From: Chryseobacterium mulctrae
GTDB lineage: Bacteria > Bacteroidota > Bacteroidia > Flavobacteriales > Weeksellaceae
Assembly: GCF_006175945.1 (NCBI RefSeq)
Contig: NZ_VAJL01000001.1
Coordinates: forward strand, 3,047,001-3,111,000
Length of the DNA stretch: 64,000 nt
Direction: 5' to 3'
Shown: positions 40,139 to 42,908 of the stretch, one piece after another
How positions within the stretch are numbered: position 1 is the first letter of the stretch
How the letters are laid out: the number at the start of each line of letters is the position of its first letter
Position numbers and translations under genes: made by a program
The notes under the pieces: generated by a model
The model's input: the letters and a program-made list of their open reading frames with translations, nothing else
Database searches by the model: none
What the model was told of the DNA's origin: nothing

Positions 40139-40146
40139 TATCTTTG
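40139..40146 (+). promoter_or_regulatory. -7 box of the 40165 gene
   Basis: TATCTTTG, the Bacteroidota TAnnTTTG form, ends 18 bp before ATG 40165. The upstream in-frame GTG codon lies inside this box. The preceding gap (39866-40138) holds only a weak dyad of GGAAGAT/ATCTTC units besides the operator. Confidence 0.6.
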
Positions 40147-40164
40147 TGGATAAATAAAAAAGAT

Positions 40165-40719
40165 ATGAATACTCCCTCAAATATGTTGGCATTAGGTACA
40201 AAAGCTCCGTTTTTTGAACTTCCGAATCCTTCAAAAAGCAATGAAGTTCAGTCATTAGATGATTTGAAAGGTGAAAAAGGTACATTGGTGATTTTTATGT
40301 GCAATCACTGTCCGTTTGTACTGCACATTATTGATAAGCTAACCGAACTTTATGAAGATTATAATGAGGCAGGAATTGAATTTATCGCGATCAATTCTAA
40401 TAACGTAGAAAAATATCCTGCGGATTCTCCGGAAAAAATGATTGAGTTTCAAATCGAAAGAAAATTTGACTTTCCTTATTTATATGACGAAAGTCAGGCA
40501 ATTGCAAAAGCGTACGATGCAGCTTGCACACCAGATTTTTTCTTCTTTGATGATAAATTAGACCTTATTTACAGAGGTCAGATGGATGATTCAAGACCTG
40601 GAAATCATAAAGAAGTGACTGGAGAAGATTTAATTATTGCTTTTGAAAATCTTTTAATCGGTGAGCCTCAGGAAGAAATTCAGAGACCGAGCATGGGTTG
40701 CAATATTAAATGGAAATAA
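40165..40719 (+). CDS. Thioredoxin-fold (AhpC/TSA-like) protein, HCP motif
   Basis: 184 residues. A redoxin fold: N-terminal GTKAPFFELPNP, then FMCNHCPFVLHIIDKL with CNHC in the usual CxxC place, INSNNVEKYPADSPEKM, and the cis-proline region CTPDFFFFDDK. No signal peptide, so cytosolic. This family (peroxiredoxin-like, with NHC before the Cys) is widespread and of uncertain role. Own promoter and own terminator; monocistronic. Confidence 0.88.
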   Translation: MNTPSNMLALGTKAPFFELPNPSKSNEVQSLDDLKGEKGTLVIFMCNHCPFVLHIIDKLTELYEDYNEAGIEFIAINSNNVEKYPADSPEKMIEFQIERKFDFPYLYDESQAIAKAYDAACTPDFFFFDDKLDLIYRGQMDDSRPGNHKEVTGEDLIIAFENLLIGEPQEEIQRPSMGCNIKWK

Positions 40720-40765
40720 TTGTAAGTTAATTGTTGCAGGTTAATTTTTCTTGCAAATAATATAT

Positions 40766-40794
40766 AAGCTGTCCTTTTTGGGATAGCTTTTTTT
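40766..40794 (+). terminator. Rho-independent terminator
   Basis: AAGCTGTCC (40766-40774) with GGATAGCTT (40781-40789), one G-T pair, then a T-run. Ends the 40165 gene. Confidence 0.8.
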
Positions 40795-41051
40795 CATATA
40801 TTGTTATTGATAATCAGACTGTTTTAGAGTTATCCACAATTTTATCCACATAGTTTCCACAACTATCTTAGTGTGAAAATTTTCTTTTTTATCAACTTAT
40901 TGAAAATCTTTAATTTATAAAATTTAATAAAAATTAGAATTGATTATTTTTTTCTAATTTCAATTGAGGAATTTAATTTTATCTAATTGATAAGTAGTCT
41001 GTTGTTGATTATGTTAAATGTTATCCACAAAGTTATCCACAGGCTTATCCA

Positions 41052-41400
41052 CAATTTATTGTTGATAAATGCGATTAAAATTTGTTTTTAATTTTAGAAT
41101 TATTACATGATATATTATTCCTCAGTTCATAAGACGCCTTTTTAAATTTACTTTTGCGTATTATTAAAATTATTAAGTATTTGAAAGATAGATTTGTATT
41201 AGTGATCTTGATATACTTTTATCCTTTGTCAGCACTAATATATTTTTTTATTGTCGGCTTATTGGCTATGTAAATTTGACTTGAAATGCTTCTGAAAAAT
41301 GTAGGAAGTTGTAGGATTGATCAATTGGTTGATAACTTCATTATTGATTTCTTTATTGTAATTCTACTTTCCATAAATGGAGGTTGTTTTTAGATAAGTA
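41052..41400. repeat. Decayed copy of the araC 3' end, unit 1
   Basis: Follows DnaA array 2 and aligns with the minus-strand 3' end of the gene at 42006-42908. The clearest stretch is about 41306-41362, similar to 42278-42344, including a shared ATTGATTTCTTT. Frame is lost. Part of a tandem unit of about 480 bp. Confidence 0.6.
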
Positions 41401-41534
41401 TTATTAATATCTTCATAAGTTACTAACAATATAGAATCTTGTTATTTTTAAAAATAGCCTTCTATATAGCTTCTAGATGGATATTTTGTAATATTTGGAA
41501 GTTATCCCCAATTTTATCCACATCATTATCCCCA

Positions 41535-41860
41535 ATTTAAAAACTAATTTTATTTTAAGTTTTTTGAATTTTAAAATCATATTTAATTTTTATTAAAATA
41601 AATTCTCAAGATGTCTTTTGAATATATTTTTATGTTTTATTAAAATAGATAAGACGATTAAAATTAAGGCTCTAACTTTATTGGATGTGTTTTTTTTGTT
41701 TGTCATCAATAAAAAAATATGCAATACCGGGATACAAATTCTTTAGTGGGGTTTAAAAAGAAATAATAGAAAAGAGGAGGTGTAAGATTGAATAATATTG
41801 CTATGAATCTATAATTAATTCTCTATCGTCGCTGCATCTTGTATTTAATAGAAATAGATC
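41535..41860. repeat. Decayed copy of the araC 3' end, unit 2
   Basis: Follows DnaA array 3. Start CAATTTAAAA and onward matches the region after array 4 (42004 and onward). Later AGGTGTAAGATTG (about 41780) matches GAAGTGTAAGATTGG of the intact gene. About 469 bp separates arrays 3 and 4, giving the unit length. Confidence 0.6.
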
Positions 41861-42005
41861 TTGTGGAAAATTGTTGATATCTTTATAGGTTATCAACAAT
41901 GAGGAAAATATCATCTTAGCGATTTTTAAAATTATGTTATTTAAAATCAATAACTTGTAATAGCGGAAAGTTATCCACAATTTTATCCACAGAGTTATCC
42001 ACAAT

Positions 42006-42908
42006 TTAAAATCCAATTTTTATTTTAGTTTCTTCAACCTTCAAATCTACATTCACTTTATTGTGTGAAAAATTTTTCATAAACTCTGAAGGTGTTTTTT
42101 CTGTATATTTTTTAAACATTCTATTGAAATAAGTAACATTGTTAAAACCACAACTGTAGCTGCACTCAGAAATACTTTTGTCCTGCGCCATTAATAAACA
42201 TGCTTTGTTGATACGGTATCTATTCACAAACTCCGTAAAGGTGATCTGAGTTGCCTTTTTAAAGAAATTACAGAATGCCGGAAGTGTAAGATTGGCCAAT
42301 TTAGCAACATCTTCAATATTGATTTCTTTGTCGTAATTGTGTTCTACAAAAGTGAAAATATTTTCCAGCCTCGTTTTGTTTTTTGAAATGATGGTGTAAG
42401 GCATAATTTCGTTATTCAAAAGCTCATAATCTTTAGATTGTGAAAGTTCAAAAAGGATTTCAAGCAACAGTAAATATCTTTTGTAGCCTTCAGATTCCAG
42501 CATCAATCTCAGTTTTGGAATCATTGTTTTTTTGATTTTTCGGTGAAATTTTATACCATATTTAGAAAGCTCCAGTAAGTCTTTGATCGATCTTGCTTCA
42601 ACTTCCTGTTCTGGAAACTGCAAAATTTCCTGTTTGAACTGGAGTACAATTTCTTCATGTGGATCGATCGAATTTAAACCAAATCCGGAATGTGGAATAT
42701 TTGAACCAATCAAAACCAAATCGCCATTGGTATAATTACTTTTATGGTAACCGACGTGGCGTGTTCCGCTCCCGGAAAGTACGCAGACAAGCTCAATTTC
42801 GGGATGATAATGATATTCCCATTTAAATTCTGAAATAGGAGAGTTATTATGAATCGTGCGGAAAGAACTCTTTTCATTGGGAATCACTCGTTCAAAAGTA
42901 ACTTTCAT
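42006..42908 (-). CDS. AraC family regulator with cupin sensor domain
   Basis: 300 residues. N-terminal cupin (about 25-95; EYHYHPEIELVCVLSGSGTRHV, GDLVLIGSNIPHSGFG) and C-terminal double HTH (about 185-285; VEHNYDKEINIEDVAKLANL, then ACLLMAQDKSISECSYSCGFNNVTYFNRMFKKYT). The C-terminus ends 3 bp beyond a DnaA box of the origin. Divergent from the MFS-trehalase-receptor genes, which it probably controls. A perfect 10-bp palindrome TTAACGTTAA at 42983-42992 lies in the shared 122-bp gap. Confidence 0.92.
   Translation of the reverse strand: MKVTFERVIPNEKSSFRTIHNNSPISEFKWEYHYHPEIELVCVLSGSGTRHVGYHKSNYTNGDLVLIGSNIPHSGFGLNSIDPHEEIVLQFKQEILQFPEQEVEARSIKDLLELSKYGIKFHRKIKKTMIPKLRLMLESEGYKRYLLLLEILFELSQSKDYELLNNEIMPYTIISKNKTRLENIFTFVEHNYDKEINIEDVAKLANLTLPAFCNFFKKATQITFTEFVNRYRINKACLLMAQDKSISECSYSCGFNNVTYFNRMFKKYTEKTPSEFMKNFSHNKVNVDLKVEETKIKIGF

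Follow-up and report, generated by a model that had tools for sequence, protein, structure and literature searches.

A phased DnaA-box cluster away from the likely replication origin of Chryseobacterium, a probable DnaA-titrating locus

The window analysed here, a whole stretch of 64 kb (G000:C1:3047001-3111000, where G000 is the genome analysed and C1 its 4,727,915-bp contig, one of four), holds a dense group of putative DnaA boxes, which a sequence-only reading had taken for the chromosomal origin of replication.

Architecture of the box cluster

A scan of the 64-kb window revealed 11 boxes on the + strand within 40830-42003, nine of them exact TTATCCACA, starting at 40830, 40842, 41021, 41033, 41045, 41514, 41971, 41983 and 41995, and two TTATCCCCA, starting at 41502 and 41526, so the boxes had been counted and placed correctly as lying on one strand in 1.2 kb. 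Ten exact TTATCCACA were present in the whole window, the tenth at 40145 on the - strand, against a mean of 0.72 and a maximum of three in 100 shuffled windows. One-mismatch boxes within the cluster region were located at 41060 (-), 41862 (-) and 41890 (+), two of the three being on the - strand. The entire cluster is contained in a noncoding, AT-rich interval of 1,286 bp (40720..42005; 23.7% GC) between convergent genes, with a redoxin/AhpC-TSA family gene (40144..40719, +) ending just before it and an AraC-family regulator gene (42006..42908, -) directing its 3′ end toward it, both families being assigned by Pfam.

Array 1 (40830..40861, +) consists of two TTATCCACA at 12 bp and a third box from 40854 without one base, TTTCCACA, which is identical in all three genomes aligned. 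Arrays 2 (41021..41053, +) and 4 (41971..42003, +) each carry three TTATCCACA in 12-bp phase, and array 3 (41502..41534, +) carries TTATCCCCA, TTATCCACA and TTATCCCCA in the same phase, all three of its boxes being TTATCCACA in the genomes G074 and G001. The exact 12-bp starts reported for arrays 2, 3 and 4 were confirmed by these positions. The claim that the boxes thereby lie nearly on one face of the helix does not hold, since 12 bp runs 51 degrees beyond one 10.5-bp turn and successive boxes therefore step around the helix.

Genome-wide, the pattern TTATCCMCA-N3-TTATCCMCA (M = A or C) was found at seven places, on one strand and only in the cluster, with none for the reversed-pattern control. 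These pairs with a 3-bp gap belong to the double DnaA boxes, defined in the passages covered of PMC11317965 as direct boxes separated by 2 or 3 bp, the distances that E. coli DnaA is reported there to prefer. The single box TTATCCMCA occurs 76 times in the whole genome, against 56 for the reversed control, and 11 of the 76 are inside the cluster; the shuffles and the genome-wide pattern counts thus reveal a group of consensus boxes beyond chance, outside the likely oriC.

A DnaA-family search of G000 detected one DnaA, at 4.137 Mb, in agreement with the earlier statement that the cluster is not next to dnaA, together with 12 weak matches. The DnaA aligns with solved DnaA proteins, domain IV included, and with the consensus match and the 3-bp gap that fits the E. 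coli preference it is likely that the predicted sites are indeed DnaA boxes, while the loading of DnaA as ordered trimers is possible, as in a binding array. No Hda-like protein was seen among the matches of this search, which used the DnaA family, not Hda, as its query. The 12 weak matches on C1 are 249-aa frames with near-equal scores, and the one tested was IstB of IS21, which suggests many IS21-type copies in this genome.

Position of the cluster and the likely origin

GC skew was sampled in 40 stretches of 20 kb and in the quarters of the window. All 11 samples between 0.60 and 2.27 Mb gave negative values, and 10 of the 11 between 2.28 and 3.02 Mb gave positive ones; three samples at 3.025-3.079 Mb, immediately left of the cluster, were slightly negative, in a stretch whose long open frames are mostly on the - strand, after which the skew turns positive at the cluster and is mostly positive from there up to 4.5 Mb. 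Complete 16S genes were found on the - strand at 0.664 and 1.415 Mb and on the + strand at 2.670, 2.979 and 3.541 Mb, with a broken one, also +, at 2.676 Mb. Each of the five complete rRNA operons is directed away from 2.28 Mb; replication from 3.088 Mb, the place of the cluster, would meet the two at 2.670 and 2.979 Mb head-on. Because skew and rRNA direction agree, the origin is placed near 2.3 Mb and not at 3.088 Mb; the cluster has neither the skew-switch position nor the outward rRNA transcription of an oriC, and the GC-skew check that the sequence-only reading had named for its origin turned out against it, with the switch near 2.27-2.28 Mb. Odd skew signs were also observed at G000:C1:4560001-4720000 (negative) and at 0-0.5 Mb (1-500000; weakly positive), unlike the clean two arms of the relatives G075 and G095, and perhaps reflect a rearrangement near the terminus.

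In G075 and G095, each with one large contig and a two-armed skew, the densest box-like group around the skew switch in the stretches read, with 7 and 8 sites of at most one mismatch in 500 bp, lies between pgk and rpiB, from which the rRNA genes point away (7/7 and 6/6, respectively). The pgk and rpiB genes of G000 (these and mnmG were named by Pfam) are at 2.28 Mb, with the local skew minimum of a 110-kb stretch 11 kb away, and the interval between them, near mnmG and 805 kb from the cluster, is likely to be the oriC of this genome. This candidate oriC, AT-rich DNA at L056:2624-3222 (G000:C1:2282624-2283222), shares conserved blocks with G075 and G095 in alignment, has an extra gene inserted before rpiB in G000, and contains two boxes with one mismatch and none that is exact. 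In all of 47 genomes, chosen mainly for having box pairs, one or more sites with no more than one mismatch were present in the 700 bp upstream of pgk; these sites totalled 155 against 10.6 in simple base shuffles, 19 of them being exact. Since these upstream sites are mostly inexact, the likely origin has weak boxes, with the perfect ones 805 kb away. An oriC prediction has been published for Elizabethkingia (PMC8994065), whose flanking genes are not named in the passages covered.

Growth, conservation and distribution of the cluster

The DNA between the arrays bears traces of the neighbouring araC gene. A decayed copy of its 3′ end (41535..41663, matching 42004-42147; repeat D2, 79% over 98 nt; score 58 against a maximum of 36 in 200 shuffles) follows array 3, and a decayed copy of a stretch deeper in araC (41298..41363, matching 42274-42338; score 52 against a maximum of 38 in 200 shuffles) follows array 2, in the same order as in the gene, while no araC similarity above shuffles was obtained in 40867-41020, after array 1, or in 40301-40829, left of the cluster. 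An inter-array fragment of G074 is still recognizable as araC at the protein level (85 aa, 45%), and the duplicated unit was therefore deduced to be a triplet with the araC 3′ end, of about 470 bp. Array 4 is probably the founder copy, as the single triplet at this locus in G026 has the same 33 bases. Judged from these remnants, the growth of the cluster is a duplication of the box triplet together with the araC 3′ end, in which the araC scraps decayed and the boxes were conserved.

In an alignment of G000, G074 and G001, made without a tree, the variable columns were 4/108 in boxes, 1/24 in spacers and 194/1007 in ungapped inter-array DNA (Fisher p 4e-6), so in these three genomes variation is about fivefold lower in box columns than in inter-array columns; gaps touched 0/108 box columns against 83/1090 inter-array columns. 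The boxes are kept in G059 and G018, in whose 20-kb loci araC was not found.

Among 118 genomes of the genus, the box triplet (M = A or C) was detected in 13, and with up to three mismatches in 33 (control 0). An exact pair with a 3-bp gap occurs in 38 and is absent from the other 80 (reversed control 0), and exact direct pairs separated by 0-30 bp occur in 72 and are absent from 46 (one match in the control), gaps of 3 and 2 bp being by eye the commonest among the matches listed. Outside the genus a close direct pair was found in 5 of 267 genomes of the order, against 22 of 29 inside the genus, with one reversed-control match, in G072. Among the best 80 of 562 loci with the redoxin gene (79 Chryseobacterium and one Weeksellaceae), 66 contain no exact box, two contain one and 12 contain two to 10, a version with 10 boxes being that of C. 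balustinum DSM 16775 (L265).

Box clusters of other Chryseobacterium genomes are located in unrelated gene contexts, with genes named by Pfam for some and by eye for others. Besides the redoxin/araC interval (context A), these comprise two small genes accompanied by an alkaline phosphatase or dehydrogenase-like gene (B), a PAP2-like coding sequence (C), other intervals (D and E), an 11-bp triplet before a PLP-enzyme gene (F), and a group of 5 to 8 exact boxes on mixed strands, which follows a DinB gene in two of the three loci read (G). The triplets of context C (L113:9336-9368, L118:9804-9836 and L122:10036-10068) lie within the PAP2-like coding sequence and were read as LWITLWIKLWIT-type (LWIT-type) repeats. 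The arrays of G146, one of the five genomes outside the genus, with 6 and 7 boxes in 12-bp tandem, were rejected as being of the same kind: the copy read (L216:1501-1569) consists of six 12-bp TTATCCACATCA units coding for a DVDN protein repeat, so phased box arrays can be coding repeats.

The cluster of G000 has a relative distance of 0.17 from the likely oriC, or 0.34 of the way to the antipode. In 16 tabulated genomes with cluster and pgk on one contig (seven chromosome lengths rounded to 100 kb; context read for 11 rows, and G013 (D) and G069, G020, G096 and G042 (G) assigned by likeness of the matched DNA), this distance ranges from 0.086 to 0.191 of the chromosome, with a mean of 0.146, on either arm, a post hoc range from related genomes. 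Across contexts A-E and G the means differ by at most 0.075 (p 0.0004 for uniform placement, post hoc and with relatives that are not independent); without the coding context C the five remaining means still span 0.075 (p about 0.002, post hoc), and with context F added to these p is about 0.03 (post hoc). Context F, read in G353 and G069 and assigned in G020, G096 and G002, lies 0.24-0.40 from oriC. Pairs outside the table, calculated by hand, range from about 0.12 to 0.26: G177 about 0.12, G063 about 0.14, G025 about 0.14 and 0.22, G024 about 0.16 (735 kb, draft contig), G054 about 0.22, G003 about 0.23, and the second pair of G013 about 0.26. In E. coli the relative distance of datA to oriC (0.10) is reported to be kept among strains (PMC4585315, PMC5010248).

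Titration of DnaA and the alternative readings

On present sequence evidence the cluster is probably a chromosomal DnaA-box locus that lies away from oriC and acts by binding and titrating DnaA, and a DnaA-box cluster of the datA/DBC kind is the best reading of its class. DnaA would fill each box group head-to-tail and cooperatively, and the perfect boxes of the cluster would compete with oriC because the likely oriC has mostly weak boxes. Once a fork has covered about one third of the distance to the antipode and passes the cluster, the strong sites would double, free DnaA would fall and re-initiation would be delayed. The site between convergent genes may keep transcription off the cluster, and transcription has been suggested to disturb datA (PMC5742627). 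According to the passages covered of the same source, initiation in E. coli, B. subtilis and Streptomyces is held back by box clusters that lie outside oriC. In favour of titration are the sole site of phased pairs in the genome, its place off the skew switch and the agreeing rRNA direction, the weak boxes of the likely oriC, the conservation of the boxes and their retention where araC was not found, the 3-bp-gap pairs of 38 genus genomes, the fit of that gap to E. coli double boxes and the tabulated distances to oriC (post hoc); against it are the 80 of 118 genus genomes that have no exact 3-bp-gap pair, the 46 of 118 that lack even a wider exact direct pair (gap up to 30 bp), the 66 of the best 80 loci of context A that contain no exact box, the local skew flip at the cluster and the pairs at other distances.

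That the cluster is itself the origin, with skew and rRNA direction lagging behind a recent move, is most improbable. It is the richest box group of the genome, its interval is AT-rich as expected of an oriC with grouped DnaA boxes, and a local skew flip coincides with it, but the skew is already positive over most of the distance from 2.28 Mb, two of the five complete rRNA operons that fit 2.28 Mb run toward the cluster, and in G075 and G095 both signals point to the neighbourhood of pgk-rpiB and not to the box clusters of those genomes. With a separate oriC candidate present, the origin proposed by the sequence-only reading was rejected, an easy error, as a genome may have its richest DnaA-box cluster at a place other than its origin. 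DnaA can be a transcription factor (PMC8203912), and the boxes could serve DnaA-dependent regulation of the redoxin or araC neighbour; this is very unlikely and was rejected as the main function, given that they sit between the 3′ ends of the two convergent genes, stay where araC is not found, and are missing as exact boxes from most relatives with the redoxin/araC pair among the loci surveyed (66 of the best 80 of 562).

We also regard it as quite unlikely that the cluster is a functionless by-product, a chance triplet amplified by duplication: growth by duplication, widely varying presence among relatives and the coding repeats of G146 agree with such an origin, but the roughly fivefold lower variability of box columns and the recurrence of similar pairs at loci unrelated to this one (reversed controls close to zero) do not. 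A true datA-type site, by analogy one holding DnaA and hydrolysing its ATP with a DNA-bending protein, seems unlikely. Like datA, the cluster is a noncoding DnaA-box group away from oriC, at an oriC-proximal distance (0.17, against 0.10 for datA); unlike it, the cluster has 11 boxes in phased groups, whereas datA is described as having five boxes and an IHF site and as promoting DnaA-ATP hydrolysis (PMC4585315, PMC5742627). The clusters of B. subtilis and Streptomyces coelicolor also lie outside oriC and are reported to repress untimely initiation (PMC5742627), but they belong to a different phylum. The double DnaA boxes of E. coli share the direct spacing of 2 or 3 bp that is preferred in vivo (PMC11317965), while the present cluster repeats triplets of perfect boxes at one locus.

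Under the favoured titration reading, dose and replication time would count more than neighbourhood, so the locus would be relocatable, and its loss and regain elsewhere at a similar distance from oriC would be tolerated. A more tentative extension, which we hold to be possible but rather doubtful, is that Chryseobacterium times replication by such a relocatable DnaA sink, whose boxes would form and vanish at unrelated sites, grow with scraps of neighbouring genes and persist mainly some 9-19% from a weak-box oriC, replication time and dose being selected rather than address.

The timing of initiation by titration at chromosomal box clusters is a long-standing question, and the abstract of PMC12371093 describes experimental support, even for E. 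coli, as missing until a short time ago. In the open-licence literature, as covered by titles and the starts of abstracts and with one query diluted by "data" matching datA, no description of a DnaA-box cluster outside oriC in Bacteroidota was found. If the arrays bind DnaA, Chryseobacterium would provide a natural series of 0, 3, 10 or 11 strong boxes at one locus, and, with the genomes that carry clusters at other sites, dose and position would be directly comparable.

Two further groups of boxes were observed close to genes. In other Chryseobacterium genomes, pairs or triplets in 11-bp phase (2-bp gaps) immediately precede a gene for a cysteine synthase-like PLP enzyme (L229:1501-1531, also L217, L219, L227, L232 and L234), 24-40% from oriC, and could be a DnaA-regulated promoter. 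The nrd genes of E. coli are under DnaA control, and in G153 and G339, of another genus, a ribonucleotide reductase small-chain frame is preceded, at about 90 bp, by a TTATCCACA pair with a 3-bp gap (L214:1501-1521 and L236:1501-1521).
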